A DNA stretch of 64,000 nucleotides from a virus. This document shows, one piece after another, positions 14,148-52,826 of the stretch (its first letter is position 1; each line of letters opens with the position of its first letter). Under the pieces are notes generated by a model. It had not been told where the DNA came from, did no database searches, and saw only the letters and a list, made by a program, of their open reading frames with translations. The DNA is taken from the IMG/VR virus record IMGVR_UViG_3300021520_000002, positions 1 to 64,000 of that record. One strand, written 5' to 3'. Both the position numbers and the translations under genes were made by a program.

Positions 14148-15839
14148 ATGATAAGAGAAATAAAAATAGATTTTTTAGAAAGAGTGAGAGTTGAAATTCT
14201 TGGAGAACCAGATGGTAATAAATATTTGGTAGAATTTATTAATCAAGATACTAGAATATTAGAATATTCAAGAGAGATGTATATTAATAATTGGGCAGTT
14301 TATATTAAATCATATTTTGTTAATTGGTTAATAAGAGTTACTGGACCAAATTATAAATATGAATATAAATATGATTGTACTGATAAAAAAGTAGTTGTTT
14401 ATTTTTCAGGTACAGGATTAGGTGATGCAATTGCTTGGTTACCAGCTTGTGTGGAATTTGTTAAGAAACATAATTGTAATTTATATGTTATGACAAATTG
14501 GGCAAAATTATTTAGTAAAGTTTATCCTGAAATCAACTTTGTAAATTTTGCCGATACAACAAATGAATATGCTCGATATAGAATTAATCTTTATCATAAT
14601 GATAAGAATAGAAATCACCAACCAAATGATTGGAGAACAATTCCTTTACAACAAATATCATCTGATATTCTTGGAATAGAATATAAAGAATCTGCTCCTA
14701 AAATAGATGTTAGTAATATAAAAACTTCTATGGTAAAAAGACCAAAAAAATATGTTTGTATATCTGAACATACTGCTTTAGGTTATTGTAAGTTATGGCA
14801 TTATCCAGGAGGATGGCAAGAAGTTGTTGATTATTTAATATCTAAAGATTATGAGGTTGTTGTTATAAGTACAGAACCAACTAAATTAGTTAATGTAATT
14901 GATATGACAAACAATTCTATTGAAGTTACTATGGGATTGTTAATGAATTGTGAGTTTTATATTGGAGTAGCATCTGGTTTAGCTTGGTTATCATGGACTT
15001 TAGGTAAGAGAGTTATTATGTTTTCTGGATTCAGTTTACCGTGGTGTGAGTTTCAAACAAACAACTATAGAATTTCTGGTGTAGGAAATTGTGTAGGTTG
15101 TTTACATGATGTATTTATCGACACATCCAGGTGGAACTCAAACTGTCCCAGAAACCAAGATAACACTTGTACTAAACAAATAACACCAAAGATGGTAACT
15201 AATATGATTGATAGATTGGTTCCATCAATAAACATTCCAATAAGTTCATTTCAAGGAGATTATGTGTTTGAAACTACAAAGGCAAATAAAAGAAGACAAA
15301 AGATAGAATTATTTCATAGAATTTTTAAAGGAAAAGGAATTGATATTGGTGCTGGTCAAGATAATGTAAATAAAGATAATATTTTTAAAGATGTTGAGTA
15401 TTGTGAGAGTTTTGATGTTGGACATGGAGATGCTCAATATATAAATTCTTATAAGCCAGAAAATTTTTATGATTTTGTACATAGTTCACATTGTTTAGAA
15501 CATATGGTTGATCCTTTTGAAGCTATTAAAAATTGGTTTTCTTTAGTTAAACCAGGTGGTTATTTAGTAGTTACAGTTCCAGATGAAGATTTATATGAAC
15601 AAGGATATTGGCCATCAAAGTTTTCAACATGTCACAATTGGACTATGACAATTAATAAAGAAAAATCATGGAGTCCAAAATCAGTTAATGTTTTAGGACT
15701 AATTCAATCTCTTGAAAAATATGAAATTATTAAAATTGAATTAGTTGATGTGAATTATAATTATTCTTTAAAGAATTTCGATCAATGTTTAAATGAAGCA
15801 GAATGTTGTGTTGAATTTATAATTCGTAAAAAAGAATAA
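14148..15839 (+). CDS. O-heptosyltransferase-like protein fused to a methyltransferase
   Basis: The protein has 563 residues. Residues 1-355 follow the layout of autotransporter strand-loop-strand O-heptosyltransferases (TibC/BAHT, GT-B fold): an N-terminal small domain, SGTGLGDAIAWLPACVEF, WRTIPLQQISSDILGIEYKE, YIGVASGLAWLSWTLGK, and an iron-finger-like set Cys 315, 318, 333, 341. Such enzymes add heptose to Ser on repeat proteins. Residues about 380-563 form a methyltransferase: GIDIGAG, then SSHCLEH and VKPGGYLVVTVP. It lies near the Ser/Thr-rich fibres, which are plausible substrates (inference). Confidence 0.75.
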   Translation: MIREIKIDFLERVRVEILGEPDGNKYLVEFINQDTRILEYSREMYINNWAVYIKSYFVNWLIRVTGPNYKYEYKYDCTDKKVVVYFSGTGLGDAIAWLPACVEFVKKHNCNLYVMTNWAKLFSKVYPEINFVNFADTTNEYARYRINLYHNDKNRNHQPNDWRTIPLQQISSDILGIEYKESAPKIDVSNIKTSMVKRPKKYVCISEHTALGYCKLWHYPGGWQEVVDYLISKDYEVVVISTEPTKLVNVIDMTNNSIEVTMGLLMNCEFYIGVASGLAWLSWTLGKRVIMFSGFSLPWCEFQTNNYRISGVGNCVGCLHDVFIDTSRWNSNCPRNQDNTCTKQITPKMVTNMIDRLVPSINIPISSFQGDYVFETTKANKRRQKIELFHRIFKGKGIDIGAGQDNVNKDNIFKDVEYCESFDVGHGDAQYINSYKPENFYDFVHSSHCLEHMVDPFEAIKNWFSLVKPGGYLVVTVPDEDLYEQGYWPSKFSTCHNWTMTINKEKSWSPKSVNVLGLIQSLEKYEIIKIELVDVNYNYSLKNFDQCLNEAECCVEFIIRKKE

Positions 15840-15855: not shown

Positions 15856-16551
15856 ATGATGTCTGTAATGTACTTATTTGAAGGTAAACCAGATAATCCA
15901 AACAGTGTAATTCTGTTGAATGAATACTATCCTAAAGGATTAACTCAACAACAAATCTATGATTATTACATGAATAATAAGAATAAGGTTCTCAATCAAG
16001 TTAAGAATAGAGAAGTGATGTTCTTTTTTGCAGTATCAAAGAATCAATTTATTGTTCGAAGAAAAGCTGCTGATGAATATTATAAACTTACTCCTGAGAA
16101 CTATGAAGACATGATTAATGGAAGAGTTGTATCAATTCATTCAACAATGAGTTCAAATGAAGAGTTTGGTATTATTGATATTGATTTTCATATTTTTGAT
16201 CAATGTAAGAAAGCTGCCGCTGAAATATATGATTATTTATTTAAGTTTTATAATAAGAATCTACAAATAAGATATACAGGTAAACAATCATTTCATATTG
16301 TTTATAATTTTAATAGATCATATAGAATTGAAACTGTTAAAGATTATTTGAAAGATGCTTTACATGGGCTTAATAAACAATATATTATTGGCGGCAAAAG
16401 ATCTGAAGAAAAAATAAATCTTGATCTTTCAAGTAATAAATATCGTGGTGGTTTTATTACTTTAAATTCATTATCAATAAATGGACTAAGATGTATGGAA
16501 ATAAAAAGAGAAGACTTAGACAAGTTTGTACAGAATCAGGCAAGAATCTAA
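15856..16551 (+). CDS. Capsid-targeted LigD-type primase-polymerase (AEP)
   Basis: The 231 residues start MMSVMYLFE|G, aligned residue for residue with the MISISxLFE leaders of its neighbours; Leu-Phe-Glu at 7-9 fits a prohead-protease site. The rest matches the archaeo-eukaryotic primase / LigD-polymerase fold: EYYPKGLTQQQIYDYY, metal-binding Asp108-x-Asp110 in IIDID, Ser145-x-His147 in KQSFHIVY, a third Asp190 (INLD), and an ending NSLSINGLRCMEIKREDL like the SLR-type end of LigD Pol. Bacterial LigD Pol fills and extends broken DNA ends in NHEJ. No Ku or ligase gene is seen here. The start at 15856 keeps the leader register. Confidence 0.8.
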   Translation: MMSVMYLFEGKPDNPNSVILLNEYYPKGLTQQQIYDYYMNNKNKVLNQVKNREVMFFFAVSKNQFIVRRKAADEYYKLTPENYEDMINGRVVSIHSTMSSNEEFGIIDIDFHIFDQCKKAAAEIYDYLFKFYNKNLQIRYTGKQSFHIVYNFNRSYRIETVKDYLKDALHGLNKQYIIGGKRSEEKINLDLSSNKYRGGFITLNSLSINGLRCMEIKREDLDKFVQNQARI

Positions 16552-16563
16552 GTTGGGGGTTTT

Positions 16564-16797
16564 ATGGTGTCTATATCTAATTTATTCGAAATCAATTTAA
16601 AATATGTGCCGATAGAAAAACAGAAAATGGGTGTAAGTGATAATTTTAAACATTATCTTGAAAGACTTAAATCAGATAGAGAAAAGATATTAGGTAAATC
16701 AGAAAGTGAAAATATTAATCCATTAAGACAATTTGGAAAAACAGAAACTGTAAATAGCAATCCAAATCCAATGAAACAGTTTGGGGTAGAAATATGA
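16564..16797 (+). CDS. Predicted internal head protein, LFE leader (register 9)
   Basis: The leader is MVSISNLFE|I. The mature part is 68 residues, Lys-rich, and holds two copies of NP-L/M-R/K-QFG near the end (about 56-62 and 68-74). No domain is recognised. The stop codon overlaps the next start (ATGA), so the genes are co-translated. Confidence 0.65.
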   Translation: MVSISNLFEINLKYVPIEKQKMGVSDNFKHYLERLKSDREKILGKSESENINPLRQFGKTETVNSNPNPMKQFGVEI

Positions 16798-17051
16798 TTA
16801 GTATAATTAATTTATTTGAAGAAATGAATATGGAAGTTCCTGGGAATTTTTCTGGAAGTGGAATAACCAGAGTAGTATCAAATAATAGTGGTGATGCACG
16901 AGAGGCAGAATTAGCAGCTTTCATGAAACGCCAAAGAGCAGCATTAAAAGAACAATCTGAATTACCACCAGGAGCAGAAAAAAGTCAAAAAAGACTTATG
17001 TTTAATCGTGGAGAAGAAATTAATGAGTTAGTAAGTAAATCAAAGAGGTAA
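16794..17051 (+). CDS. Predicted internal head protein, LFE leader (register 9)
   Basis: The leader MISIINLFE|E precedes 76 charged, mostly helical residues with a basic stretch (FMKRQRAALKEQ) and a Lys/Arg end (LVSKSKR). It overlaps the previous gene by four bases. Function unknown; packaging in the head is inferred from the leader. Confidence 0.65.
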   Translation: MISIINLFEEMNMEVPGNFSGSGITRVVSNNSGDAREAELAAFMKRQRAALKEQSELPPGAEKSQKRLMFNRGEEINELVSKSKR

Positions 17052-17055
17052 TATT

Positions 17056-17247
17056 ATGATTAGTATTATATTTGAATTTAATTTTGATGATTTAAGTTTT
17101 GGTGGTGTCACTAGTAATGCTAAAAAATTAATAGCGGCAAAAACCGAACAAGATCAAAAACCAGGTTTACTTTCTAATATGTTAAAAAATAAAATTAAAG
17201 CAGGTATAGAAAATAAAATTAATACTTTAACTACAAAACCAATGTAA
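17056..17247 (+). CDS. Predicted internal head protein, IFE leader (register 7)
   Basis: The leader is MISIIFE|F, the shorter form in which Glu is at residue 7. The 63-residue protein ends in a basic helix-rich part with LLSNMLKNKIKAGIENKI. The same leader and a similar size occur at 40756-40929, so the two may be distant paralogues. Confidence 0.65.
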   Translation: MISIIFEFNFDDLSFGGVTSNAKKLIAAKTEQDQKPGLLSNMLKNKIKAGIENKINTLTTKPM

Positions 17248-17257
17248 GGGGTAAACT

Positions 17258-17464
17258 ATGATTAGTATTGTTGAAATGTTTAATACATCACCACAAGCTC
17301 TTTCCGATAAATGGAAATATTATAATAATGAAGCACAGAAATCTGGTAATATTGATTTACAAAATAAAGCTCAGAAAGCAGCAGCTCTTTCTAATGCCTC
17401 TTTATATCCTACTGGTTCAATATCATGGAAAAAATATATGGATAGAGCTAAAGGAGTTAATTGA
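17258..17464 (+). CDS. Predicted internal head protein, IVE leader (register 6)
   Basis: The 68 residues start MISIVE|MF. Ile-Val-Glu at 4-6 provides the I-x-E motif, while the later LFE position reads M-F-N. The body is polar and basic (KYYNNEAQKSG, SWKKYMDRAKG). The stop overlaps the next ATG by one base. A second open frame over the same bases is a shadow. Confidence 0.65.
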   Translation: MISIVEMFNTSPQALSDKWKYYNNEAQKSGNIDLQNKAQKAAALSNASLYPTGSISWKKYMDRAKGVN

Positions 17465-17583
17465 TGTTATCTATTATTGATTTATTTGAAACTAAACAAG
17501 ATAAAAAGAAAGAAAAAGAATCTGATAAATCAAAAACTAAAAAATATGATGAAGAACATGAAGGAGATGAAGACGATGATTAG
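17464..17583 (+). CDS. 39-residue highly charged internal head protein candidate
   Basis: The gene begins in the stop of the previous one (TGATG) and ends inside the start of the next (ATGATTAG), giving 39 residues: leader MLSIIDLFE|T and then almost only Lys, Glu, Asp and Ser, closing with a run of acidic residues. Its position, leader and coupling support it as a real gene despite its length. Confidence 0.65.
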   Translation: MLSIIDLFETKQDKKKEKESDKSKTKKYDEEHEGDEDDD

Positions 17584-18013
17584 TTTAACTAATTTGTTTG
17601 AAATATCTCCAGAACATGTTGTGACTCCAGATTCAGATATTAATGGAAAATTTCTTGTCCATTTTCATCAAGCTAGAAAAGCTGGGGATCATTTTGATAT
17701 CAGATTAGGAAAAGATGGAGCTTTAGTTTCTTGGGCAACTAAAAAACTTCCAGAATTAATTGATGAAGAATCTAAGAAAATTATGTTGTTCAAACAACCA
17801 GATCATGATGCTGCTTGGTTCAATTTCAAAGGTGAAATTACTGATGGATATGGAGCTGGAAATGTCAATATCTGGGATAAGGGAAAATATAAGGTTTTGA
17901 AATGGGAAAAGAATATTATAACTGTTGATTTTAAAGGAACTAAAATAAAAGGAGTTTATACATTTCTTTTCTATGGTGAAGATAAATGGTTATTATTTAA
18001 ATCTAAGGGGTGA
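17576..18013 (+). CDS. Capsid-targeted LigD-type 3'-phosphoesterase
   Basis: The ATG at 17576, overlapping the upstream stop, gives 145 residues with leader MISLTNLFE|I. The body matches the phosphoesterase (PE) domain of bacterial DNA ligase D: FLVHFHQARK then HFDIRL (His31, His39, Asp41, Arg43 as the metal and phosphate ligands), LVSWATKKLP, KQPDHDAAWFNFKGEI and DGYGAGNVNIWDKGKY. LigD PE trims 3' phosphates and ribonucleotides to leave a clean 3'-OH. Here it is free-standing, five genes downstream of the LigD-Pol-like gene, with the same leader. Confidence 0.85.
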   Translation: MISLTNLFEISPEHVVTPDSDINGKFLVHFHQARKAGDHFDIRLGKDGALVSWATKKLPELIDEESKKIMLFKQPDHDAAWFNFKGEITDGYGAGNVNIWDKGKYKVLKWEKNIITVDFKGTKIKGVYTFLFYGEDKWLLFKSKG

Positions 18014-18699: not shown

Positions 18700-19170
18700 G
18701 TGATTATTAAAACACCTAACATTTTTTTCCTTACATGTGGAAATTCAGAGGGATTTTCTTTATTGAATGCTTTTGATGGAGCACTTTTAAATTCAGGTAT
18801 TGGAGATATGAATTTAGTTAGACTAAGTTCAATATTACCACCATATTGTCAAGAAGTAGAAAAAATTAATATTCCTTACGGTTCTCTTGTACCAACAGCA
18901 TATGCTTCAATTACAAGTGATATTCCTGGAGATATTATTTCTTCTGCTGTAGCAGTTGGTGTTTCCGAAGATCCCAATCTTGCTAGTCTTATAATGGAAT
19001 ATTCAGCTCGTGCCGATAAAGAAACCGTTGAAATACAAGTTAGAAAAATGGCAGAAGAGGGAATGAAATTTAGGAATAGAAATATTAAAGAAATAAAATC
19101 AATATCAGCAACTCATAAAGTTATATCTTATGGTGCGACTTTTGCTGCAGTTATTTTGTGGTCAAATTAA
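18700..19170 (+). CDS. Pyruvoyl-dependent arginine decarboxylase
   Basis: This 156-residue protein closely follows the PvlArgDC family. NIFFLTCGNSEGFSLLNAFD opens the fold; RLSSILPP holds the self-cleavage pair Ser43-Ser44 that makes the pyruvoyl group; SLVPTAYASIT, ISSAVAVGV and IMEYSA (Glu100 as catalytic acid) follow, and it ends FAAVILW. The enzyme converts arginine to agmatine, the entry to polyamines. The start is GTG with AGGGAGG upstream. Family length is usual (150-165), so it looks intact. Phage polyamines could help neutralise packaged DNA or alter host acid response (inference). Confidence 0.85.
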   Translation: MIIKTPNIFFLTCGNSEGFSLLNAFDGALLNSGIGDMNLVRLSSILPPYCQEVEKINIPYGSLVPTAYASITSDIPGDIISSAVAVGVSEDPNLASLIMEYSARADKETVEIQVRKMAEEGMKFRNRNIKEIKSISATHKVISYGATFAAVILWSN

Positions 19171-19747: not shown

Positions 19748-19981
19748 ATGATATCAATTTCTAATTTATTTGAACAGGACGAAACCTGGATACAAGACGC
19801 GAAGCCAAAGAAAGGTTTACTTCATAGAAAATTAGGAGTTCCACAAGATGAAAAGATACCACAGGAGAAGTTACAAAGTATAAAAGATAGATTACACAAT
19901 AAAGCTGAAAAAGGAAAATTATCTCCTTCTGAACTTAAAACTTCAAGAAGAGTTAATTTTGCAATAAACGCACAAGGATAA
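19748..19981 (+). CDS. Predicted internal head protein, LFE leader (register 9)
   Basis: The leader MISISNLFE|Q precedes a 68-residue basic body (KPKKGLLHRKLG, then KLQSIKDRLHNKAEKGK). No domain recognised. It follows the homing nuclease by two bases, separated by the nuclease and decarboxylase from the main first cluster. Confidence 0.65.
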   Translation: MISISNLFEQDETWIQDAKPKKGLLHRKLGVPQDEKIPQEKLQSIKDRLHNKAEKGKLSPSELKTSRRVNFAINAQG

Positions 19982-40159: not shown

Positions 40160-40363
40160 ATGATTTCAATTTCTAGTTTATTTGAAGCTCCAAATGTGCC
40201 TTCTGAACAAGCAAATGGATTAACTGTGCCGTTTGGAAATTATAATCCAGCAAAAAGAAATAATGAAGTTTTAGGTAATCTTCAAGGTTTAAACAAGTTA
40301 CCACTCGAAGATCAGGTTAAGAAGTTACGTGATAGTGGAGTTGATATTGGTACTTTTATATAA
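40160..40363 (+). CDS. Predicted internal head protein, LFE leader (register 9)
   Basis: The leader is MISISSLFE|A, with Ala directly after the predicted cut, the residue favoured by T4 gp21. The 58-residue body is polar (GNYNPAKRNNEVLGNLQG). It opens the second and larger cluster of leader genes. Confidence 0.65.
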   Translation: MISISSLFEAPNVPSEQANGLTVPFGNYNPAKRNNEVLGNLQGLNKLPLEDQVKKLRDSGVDIGTFI

Positions 40364-40374
40364 TAGGAGTATTT

Positions 40375-40560
40375 ATGATTTCAGTAAGTATATTATTTGA
40401 AGATGACAGTTCAATACAAAAAAATTTTATTCCAAAATTAGATCAAAAAGAAAATCAACAAACTATTCTTGGACTTATTAAAAAACCAATCAAAAAAATA
40501 CAAAATATTTTTATAGGAAATCCAGATTTTTCAGGAACAATTGCTGGATCACGTGGATAA
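40375..40560 (+). CDS. Predicted internal head protein, LFE leader, tandem copy 1
   Basis: Leader MISVSILFE|D. The 61-residue protein has a basic centre (LIKKPIKKIQN) and ends FSGTIAGSRG. The following gene has the same plan (KKAIKKIS, then SGPTAVTGIRG), so the two are tandem duplicates. Confidence 0.65.
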   Translation: MISVSILFEDDSSIQKNFIPKLDQKENQQTILGLIKKPIKKIQNIFIGNPDFSGTIAGSRG

Positions 40561-40569
40561 GGAGTACTT

Positions 40570-40743
40570 ATGATTTCTGTAAGTAGATTATTTGAAGATG
40601 GTAATTTAGTACAAAATACAAATCAAGAGAATAAAAATATTATTCAAGAAATTGTTAAAAAAGCAATTAAAAAAATATCTGTAGCTGTTGAAGGTAAAGT
40701 GGATGTTAGTGGACCTACAGCTGTTACTGGTATACGTGGATAA
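40570..40743 (+). CDS. Predicted internal head protein, LFE leader, tandem copy 2
   Basis: The ATG after GGAGTACTT gives 57 residues with leader MISVSRLFE|D, a Lys-rich centre and the -IRG end that parallels the -SRG end of copy 1. No domain recognised. Confidence 0.65.
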   Translation: MISVSRLFEDGNLVQNTNQENKNIIQEIVKKAIKKISVAVEGKVDVSGPTAVTGIRG

Positions 40744-40755
40744 GAGAGGAAGATT

Positions 40756-40929
40756 ATGATATCAATTATATTTGAATTTGATTTAGAAAAAACTAGACAA
40801 GGATTTTTTAATAAACAAGTTAAAGAATTAGAAAATAAAAAAGAAATTCCTGGTACGATAGCTGAGAAATTACATCAAAAAAATATTGACAATATGAAAA
40901 TCGAAGCTAGTGGAAAGTATCCGAAATAA
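40756..40929 (+). CDS. Predicted internal head protein, IFE leader (register 7)
   Basis: A 57-residue protein with leader MISIIFE|F, the same first eight residues as the product of 17056-17247, 24 kb upstream. The body is basic and helical. RBS AGAGAGGAAGATT. Confidence 0.65.
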   Translation: MISIIFEFDLEKTRQGFFNKQVKELENKKEIPGTIAEKLHQKNIDNMKIEASGKYPK

Positions 40930-51331: not shown

Positions 51332-51678
51332 TTAGTGTTAGTCAAATATTTGAGTCTGAATTAGATGGACCTTTAGATGATTATTCATATCTTTTACATC
51401 ATGTTGAAGTAGATGATAAAGGTAATGAGAATTTACATCATTGTTTTGTATATGATCATTTGGGTAATATGTTTACTCAAGATACAATTATTATTAAAGA
51501 TGGAAAATGTTATGATGGAAATAATAAATTATTAAAAGATGGAACTTATCATTCAATTTCAGGTTTAGAACCAGAACAAGAAGTTTGTTGGAGTGATTCA
51601 CAAGCAGAAGAAAATGGAATTAAACCAAAACGTATGGTTGCAGGAATGACATATAAACAGAAAGCTAAGGAGTGGTAA
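51328..51678 (+). CDS. Predicted internal head protein, IFE|S leader
   Basis: The 116 residues start MISVSQIFE|S. The body is a small mixed fold with LLHHVEVDDKGNENLHHCFV and two Trp near the end. It looks like a folded domain rather than a tail, so an enzyme or inhibitor is possible, but I recognise no family. Confidence 0.6.
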   Translation: MISVSQIFESELDGPLDDYSYLLHHVEVDDKGNENLHHCFVYDHLGNMFTQDTIIIKDGKCYDGNNKLLKDGTYHSISGLEPEQEVCWSDSQAEENGIKPKRMVAGMTYKQKAKEW

Positions 51679-52385
51679 TGATCATTAATCCTATTAATTG
51701 GAGAAGTATAGGAAAAGTTCCTACGATTGAACAAATAGAGGATTATATTTTTGAAGTTATTAATAATCTTGATTGTAGAAATTTAGCCTTATCTGGAGGA
51801 ATAGATAGTTCTTATATGTTATGGTGTATGGTGCAAAAATTTGGAAATGACATAAATTGTTTTACCATAGCTTTAAATCATAGTCATCCTGATTATATTT
51901 ATTCAAAACAGATAACAAAATTATTAGGAGTTAATTGGCATTGTTATATTCCTTCAGATAAAGAAGTTAAAGAATTACTTGAAGATAAAAATGGAGATTT
52001 AATAGTTGCAAAATTTTTTACTTGGTTAGAAGCTAAAGAAAGAATAACTGAAATAATTTGTTGTGATGGTATTGATGAATTTATGGGTGGTTATTATGAT
52101 CATCTTCATAATCCTACACATGAAACCTATTATGATTATATGATTAGATTACAAAAAGAACAATTTGAACCTCTTCATAAAAATTCTGGTAAAATAGATG
52201 TGTTGTTACCATATATGAATAGAAATCTTATTGAATTATATAATAGAATTCCTATGATTGATAGATTTGATGCTGTTGGTGGTAGAAAAAAGATAATGGT
52301 TGAATTAGCAAAAGATAAAATTCCAGAAGAAATAATTAATCGAAGAAAATATGGATTTATTGACGCTATGAAAATAAAGGAGTAA
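51678..52385 (+). CDS. Asparagine-synthetase-like PP-loop protein
   Basis: The ATG at 51678 overlaps the upstream stop with AAGGAG five bases before it. The 235 residues have the PP-loop SGGIDSS (39-45), FTIALNHSHPDY, and CDGIDEFMGGYYDH, the counterpart of the GDGADELFGGY element of asparagine synthetase B. The glutaminase half of AsnB is absent, so ammonia or another amine would be the donor. The substrate may be a peptide or nucleotide. It has no leader although both neighbours do. Confidence 0.75.
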   Translation: MIINPINWRSIGKVPTIEQIEDYIFEVINNLDCRNLALSGGIDSSYMLWCMVQKFGNDINCFTIALNHSHPDYIYSKQITKLLGVNWHCYIPSDKEVKELLEDKNGDLIVAKFFTWLEAKERITEIICCDGIDEFMGGYYDHLHNPTHETYYDYMIRLQKEQFEPLHKNSGKIDVLLPYMNRNLIELYNRIPMIDRFDAVGGRKKIMVELAKDKIPEEIINRRKYGFIDAMKIKE

Positions 52386-52388
52386 ATT

Positions 52389-52826
52389 ATGATTAGTGTA
52401 AATTATTTATTTGAAGGTGATGAACCTAAAGGGGTTATAACAGATGAAAATATTTTAAAGGATGTAAAAAAGACACAAGAAATTCAAGATGCTGTTATAA
52501 GACTTATTATAGACAAAAAACTAAGACCGGATGATGATGACATTCATAATCTTGCCGGTAAATTTAATATGGACCCACATGAGTTTGAAGAAGTTATTTA
52601 TGCTTTACTTGGTGATTTAATTACTAAAAGTGCTGGAAAACATAAGGATATTCCAATATCAAAATTTGATCCAAAACAAGTTAAGATAGGGATGAAAATA
52701 GAAAAAGAACATTCAGACAATCCAGCGATAAGAGCAGAAATAACTAAAGATCATTTAGCTGAATTTCCAAAAGATTATTATACAAGATTAGTTAAATTGG
52801 AAAAAGATGCTAAGAAAAATAAATAA
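52389..52826 (+). CDS. Capsid-leader protein with DUF5661-like domain
   Basis: Of 145 residues, the first nine are MISVNYLFE|G. The C-terminal half (KQVKIGMKIEKEHSDNP, then ITKDHLAEFPKDYYTRLVKLEK) matches the GMxxExEHTxDPxxAxxIAxDHLxEFPxYYTRLxKME pattern of DUF5661 proteins (recalled). Function of that family is unknown. It is one of the few leader proteins with a recognisable domain. Confidence 0.65.
   Translation: MISVNYLFEGDEPKGVITDENILKDVKKTQEIQDAVIRLIIDKKLRPDDDDIHNLAGKFNMDPHEFEEVIYALLGDLITKSAGKHKDIPISKFDPKQVKIGMKIEKEHSDNPAIRAEITKDHLAEFPKDYYTRLVKLEKDAKKNK

Follow-up and report, generated by a model that had tools for sequence, protein, structure and literature searches.

Gene content of the locus and affiliation of the virus

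On the plus strand of the window, which covers positions 1 to 64,000 of a 285,572-bp IMG/VR virus record, the gene at 15856-16551 encodes a predicted 231-aa divergent primase-polymerase of the AEP type with LigD-Pol character, and the gene at 17576-18013 encodes a predicted 145-aa stand-alone 3'-phosphoesterase of the LigD type. Each protein begins with a nine-residue leader (MMSVMYLFE at 15856-15882 and MISLTNLFE at 17576-17602, both +), with a predicted cut after Glu9 and a predicted mature form starting at residue 10. The two genes flank four small genes of the same strand, two of them leader-bearing (MVSISNLFE, 77 aa, 16564-16797, between both enzymes; MISIINLFE, 85 aa, 16794-17051) and two carrying variant leaders (MISIIFEF, 63 aa, 17056-17247; MISIVEMFN, 68 aa, 17258-17464), and a further leader-bearing gene of the same cluster is located at 19748-19981 (MISISNLFE, 77 aa, +). 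The shortened or shifted form MISIIFEF is present on two small proteins of the window (17056 and 40756, +), and a run of four tiny proteins of 57-67 aa, each with the leader or a variant of it and two of them mutually similar, is encoded at 40160-40926 (+). Other genes nearby include a pyruvoyl-dependent arginine decarboxylase without the leader inside the cluster (18700-19170, +; PF01862, 4.6e-39), a gene immediately upstream of that of the polymerase whose product joins a glycosyltransferase-9-like part (weak, marginally under the cut-off) to a methyltransferase (14148-15839, +), and an asparagine-synthase-like protein adjoining leader-bearing genes (51672-52385, +; PF00733, 1.6e-17).

The window is low in GC and its genes lie almost entirely on a single strand; all findings rest on one uncultured genome. 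PHROGs profile searches of the record identified a terminase (phrog_2, 2e-35), a T4 gp21-type head protease (phrog_207, 3e-15; phrog_3014, 3e-14), a major head (capsid) protein (phrog_20655, 9e-7), a gp5-like baseplate hub (phrog_430) and a UvsX-like recombinase (phrog_97, 2.5e-30). Judged by these matches, the virus is a distant T4-like phage, with a terminase that is only about 25% identical to those of named phages and 85% identical to that of a sister contig. The record also encodes a DnaB-type helicase, whose gene looks interrupted by endonuclease-like ORFs, and the portal and capsid genes of relatives likewise appear split by such ORFs, which suggests introns or inteins (helicase, portal and capsid genes at locus L003 4191-7226, locus L006 6634-11880 and locus L007 6692-12523); at the Rfam gathering score, no known intron was detected in the window, L003 or L007.

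The polymerase gene encodes a divergent AEP with LigD-Pol likeness

The 15856 protein gave no convincing match in Pfam, PHROGs, NCBIfam or PDB, and direct searches of viral contigs, phage records and PDB returned no relatives. We used family profiles, one built from 20 LigD polymerases (mostly from a genome scan, two from plasmids) and one from seven archaeal PriS, each searched against a target set made up of the protein, 5,000 of its shuffles and 2,770 ORFs that came from the window and from fetched loci. With the LigD-Pol profile, the protein reached a modest 15.4 bits (E = 0.0035 among 7,772 targets) and ranked right behind the genuine LigD polymerases, above the remaining decoy ORFs; none of the 5,000 shuffles matched its score (best shuffle 7.9 bits). 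With the PriS profile it scored 10.4 bits, just behind the true members (best shuffle 8.3); PriS was rejected as the closest family on this weaker score (10.4 vs 15.4 bits), with the D...N...SL signature favouring LigD Pol.

The three AEP motifs (hDhD, sxH, hD) occur in order and aligned without manual adjustment: Asp108-Ile-Asp110 (16177-16185, +), TGKQSFH at residues 141-147 with S145-x-H147 (16276-16296, +), and Asp190-x-x-x-Asn194, a LigD-Pol-type D..QN signature (16423-16437, +). A MAFFT alignment with LigD Pol was collinear along the entire protein and placed the N-terminal signature YP.GLT..I.YY....L....R.V, Phe65, T141-G-K-Q-S-F-H147, D190-x-x-x-N194 and the S-L pair on their LigD-Pol counterparts, with His95 on the ribose-contacting (2'-OH) His. 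In the same alignment, several parts specific to end joining are missing from the phage protein. The LigD-Pol 5'-phosphate pocket consists of Asn13, Lys16 and Lys26, and loops 1 and 2 have been described alongside it (PMC8656161); in the phage protein the Lys26 position is Gln, there is no clear Lys16 equivalent, and both loop regions, which LigD uses for synapsis of broken ends, are shortened. About 18 residues are absent after Phe65, the segment between motifs II and III is shorter, and neither an Arg244 equivalent nor the Arg after SL is present.

AlphaFold run on the lone sequence gave a pLDDT of 35 and no structural match, and hhalign with the single query gave no useful probability. When the LigD-Pol alignment was supplied, pLDDT rose to 55, with residues 101-190 at about 70, and the first structural matches were LigD polymerases and Prim-PolC (2fao, 6sa0, 5dmu), a result that leans on the alignment, which biases the model, and which we do not take as independent evidence. 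By its profile ranking and motifs, the 15856 protein is a divergent AEP with LigD-Pol likeness, minus the NHEJ-specific parts.

The phosphoesterase gene encodes a predicted 3'-ribonuclease

The longest ORF at the phosphoesterase locus begins at a TTG at 17477, while the ATG at 17576 is preceded by GGAG and yields the leader. The LigD_N domain (17660-17965, +) matches PF13298 over nearly the whole profile (E = 2.1e-19, 70.1 bits vs a cut-off of 31.1), and NCBIfam TIGR02777 matches at 2.8e-22, below its equivalog cut-off. The best PDB match is 3p43 (E = 4e-22), and identity over aligned stretches is 43% to this archaeal enzyme and 41% to 3p4h. The Mn-site residues His31, His39 and Asp41, plus Arg43 and His77, are kept and are invariant across all 72 relatives, so that five of the six catalytic residues (H42, H48, D50, R52, H84, Y88) are identical; the sixth, Tyr88 in Pseudomonas, is Tyr in 71 of the 72 relatives and Trp in one, from Thermofilum, and is Trp81 here. 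These results, with those above, bear out two readings of an earlier note on this DNA, namely the DxD, SxH and third Asp of a LigD-type polymerase at 15856 (D108xD110, S145xH147 and D190, with the LigD-Pol profile ranking) and the His/Asp/Arg set of a LigD phosphoesterase at 17576.

Eight archaeal stand-alone enzymes share with the phage protein a two-residue AG insert (R-[KR]-A-G-x-H), His29 in the place of Gln40 and the loss of a single residue ahead of YGAG, and most of them also share its Q-P-D-H. In the tree, the phage protein sits on a very long branch of unsure placement and was not grouped with the AG-insert archaea, and the common indels are for that reason a lead and not proof. Phage records contained no significant relatives of the phosphoesterase, LigD-type matches among viral contigs were confined to two contigs, and neither the polymerase nor the phosphoesterase gene was seen in related contigs of the virus group, which are fragments.

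With respect to activity, Glu82 and the N-terminal Arg residues have been tied to the phosphatase and not to the ribonuclease function of this family (PMC4797286, PMC8656161). The Glu82 equivalent is Pro75, and no Arg lies upstream of the domain where equivalents of Arg14/Arg15 would stand, which makes a 3'-phosphatase activity doubtful. The enzyme is predicted to be a 3'-ribonuclease whose phosphatase activity is weak or absent.

A recurrent leader points to packaging in the phage head

The earlier note had described the leaders of both enzymes as the same nine residues; they do belong to one family (consensus M-[IMV]-S-[IVL]-x-x-L-F-E) but are not literally identical, agreeing at five of nine positions. 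A DNA pattern for M-I/M-S/T-x-x-x-L-F-E occurred 16 times in the record, 11 of them in the window, against 0 for the reversed pattern, with a chance expectation of roughly 0.001 if 450 starts are assumed. The sister contig gave 7 against 0 for the reversed control; a more distant contig lacked the pattern and contained the related start MLPVSFLFE. Comparison of 18 leaders of the record showed M, S, F and E without exception at positions 1, 3, 8 and 9, and L at position 7 in 17 of them. Most of this uniformity is imposed by the search pattern, so that the genuine test lies in the counts relative to the reversed control.

The preference of the T4 head protease is I/L-x-E. The capsid protein of the present virus contains a putative site EYLLTE|SANVPGS, which in a relative reads MLLTE|AANVPGS (conserved L-T-E|S/A), and a core-like protein encoded before the protease gene starts MLLVEVLFE|Q. 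T4 IPII and IPIII begin MKTYQEFIAE|A, and the L-F-E end of our leader resembles their I-A-E end. Proteases of the T4 type cleave after Glu (PMC5694885), and T4 Ip1-3 are injected anti-restriction proteins, with Ip genes having been discovered via such a leader (PMC12373910). Taken together, the leader, the gp21-type protease, the capsid-protein site and the T4 leader strongly support a T4-like capsid-targeting propeptide, which is how the nine residues are best read. An alternative is that they form some other short conserved N-terminal element on ordinary cytoplasmic phage proteins. We consider this improbable, since the leader is confined to the N-termini of small proteins that are otherwise unrelated and of a few enzymes, its L-x-E end resembles the capsid-protein site, and a gp21-type protease is encoded in the same genome, an architecture shared with T4. 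By analogy with T4, we infer head packaging, leader cleavage and ejection, and regard injection of both enzymes as a good inference; their joint action, suggested by the common cluster and leader, and their substrate are proposed.

Besides the small proteins, the leader is carried by proteins with an HD domain (PF01966, 4e-9), a weak SLOG/LSDAT match (0.02, below cut-off), DUF5662 and DUF5661, encoded respectively at L004 8565-9251 (-; record 189251, -), L002 2632-3084, L002 3411-4007 and window 52389-52826. Their leaders make them candidates for further injected cargo.

The pair is unlikely to be a split end-joining system

The earlier note regarded the two genes as a LigD ligase that had been split, and named help in circularising the genome among its possible roles. 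That the domains lie in separate genes holds, yet the split itself is nothing unusual, since in archaeal NHEJ Pol and PE are normally encoded apart (PMC4797286) and stand-alone archaeal enzymes have the same AG insert, His29, QPDH and G-YGAG deletion as the phage phosphoesterase. The circularisation proposal is weakened. Searches of the 285-kb record, which may be incomplete, gave no match for Ku (PF02735) and none at E ≤ 0.001 for an ATP-dependent ligase (PF01068); both negatives are strong hints, not proof, because Pfam PF03420 missed the head protease that PHROGs detected. With no Ku or PF01068 ligase detected in the record, a polymerase devoid of the 5'-phosphate pocket and NHEJ loops, and a phosphoesterase devoid of 3'-phosphatase determinants, the pair is, as far as its sequences tell, not a split NHEJ module, and the virus has no recognisable NHEJ system.

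A true NHEJ-like module that circularises the injected genome using host Ku or ligase would agree with the family membership of both enzymes, and phage-assisted NHEJ circularisation has a precedent (Pitcher 2006, as cited in PMC4351075). Besides the negative searches, the missing pocket lysines and the shortened loops, such a module is countered by the UvsX-like recombinase and T4-type terminase, which suggest terminally redundant ends and make recombination the expected route for joining them; we consider it improbable. The record further encodes an NAD-dependent ligase without the leader at 217.7 kb (phrog_3869, E = 5e-124) and a DnaG-type primase near 163 kb (phrog_47, 4e-12), and with its own ligase, primase and UvsX a circularisation or priming role for the pair is unlikely. 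Many phages do use AEPs as primases (PMC5862659), and the 15856 protein could in principle be a primase or polymerase of phage replication, with the leader incidental or of dual use. However, a virus with a DnaG-type primase and a DnaB-type helicase needs no AEP for priming, and the gene sits among small leader-bearing proteins, away from the replication genes; we consider this reading improbable.

A proposed role at genome entry

Our preferred and most economical reading, to which we give an even chance, makes both gene products internal head proteins of a T4-like jumbo phage that are injected to mend the incoming genome. The more specific proposal, that the phage packages an end-joining-type polymerase and a 3'-phosphoesterase in its head and injects both as a repair kit acting on DNA before gene expression, is put forward tentatively, at slightly less than even. 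In this scheme, the leader would target both proteins to the prohead core, the gp21-type protease would remove it after L-F-E, and the mature AEP polymerase (~222 aa) and phosphoesterase (~136 aa) would be ejected along with the genome. Inside the newly infected cell and ahead of phage gene expression, both enzymes would process breaks, gaps and nicks of the incoming DNA, possibly those inflicted by host nucleases, by packaging or during storage. The polymerase would add nucleotides and fill gaps, probably taking ribonucleotides readily because it retains, as His95, the His that contacts the 2'-OH, and the phosphoesterase would trim 3'-terminal ribonucleotides, with sealing by the host ligase first and the phage NAD-dependent ligase later. 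The pair would then be comparable in function to the end-processing half of archaeo-prokaryotic NHEJ, in which the Pol/PE partnership is established (PMC4797286), without being an NHEJ system.

The repair reading has a close rival in anti-defence use, in which the pair would belong to a broad injected cargo directed against a specific host nuclease or another defence that damages nucleic acids (DNA or RNA), and would not serve general end repair. Each of the T4 proteins Ip1-3 blocks Type IV restriction enzymes (PMC12373910), HD enzymes have been proposed as counter-defence phosphodiesterases in jumbo phages (PMC7824862), and the HD-domain, SLOG/LSDAT-like, DUF5662 and DUF5661 proteins are among the other leader-bearing products. 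Against this, those relatives of Pol and PE that have been characterised work in DNA repair; we regard anti-defence use as possible but the less probable account.

The T4 internal proteins of known function are nuclease inhibitors. If NHEJ-type enzymes do occur in the virion, some phages would actively repair their own genome at entry, and the role of injected head proteins could be put to the test on two small proteins, since assays are established for their relatives. More generally, a phage's own leader sequence can be read to reveal its injected cargo.

Comparison with known systems

Taken singly, Pol and PE genes that lie apart, AEPs in phages and proteins injected from the head are all known. 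In the open-licence literature searched, we found neither the combination of NHEJ-type end-processing enzymes with a head leader nor a description of a repair function for T4-type internal proteins. The polymerase resembles Mycobacterium LigD PolDom and Methanocella Pol (5dmu) in its collinear motifs I-III, N-terminal, D...N and SL signatures and ribose-contacting His, and differs from both in the ~18 residues missing after Phe65, the shorter II-III segment and the lack of K16/K26 and Arg244 equivalents. The phosphoesterase is a compact single domain like the stand-alone archaeal enzymes (3p43, 3p4h, and the AG-insert group of Aigarchaeota, Wolframiiraptor and Thermofilum), with which it has in common the Mn-site His/His/Asp, Arg and His, the AG insert, His29, QPDH and the G-YGAG deletion, but it is set apart by the head leader, a Trp for the catalytic Tyr (otherwise only in Thermofilum) and its very long branch. 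Mycobacteriophage Corndog offers a likeness in that a phage draws on NHEJ components when its genome enters the cell; Corndog encodes Ku and relies on NHEJ, whereas the present virus has Pol and PE types and no detectable Ku. A parallel in architecture is offered by the gp21-processed IPI, IPII and IPIII of T4, which likewise combine a short N-terminal leader on otherwise unrelated small proteins with a cognate gp21-type protease, the leader of IPII and IPIII ending in hydrophobic-x-Glu as here. The leaders themselves differ (MKTYQEFIAE in T4, MISIxxLFE here), and the one described here is present on at least 16 genes and extends to enzymes of DNA-repair families.
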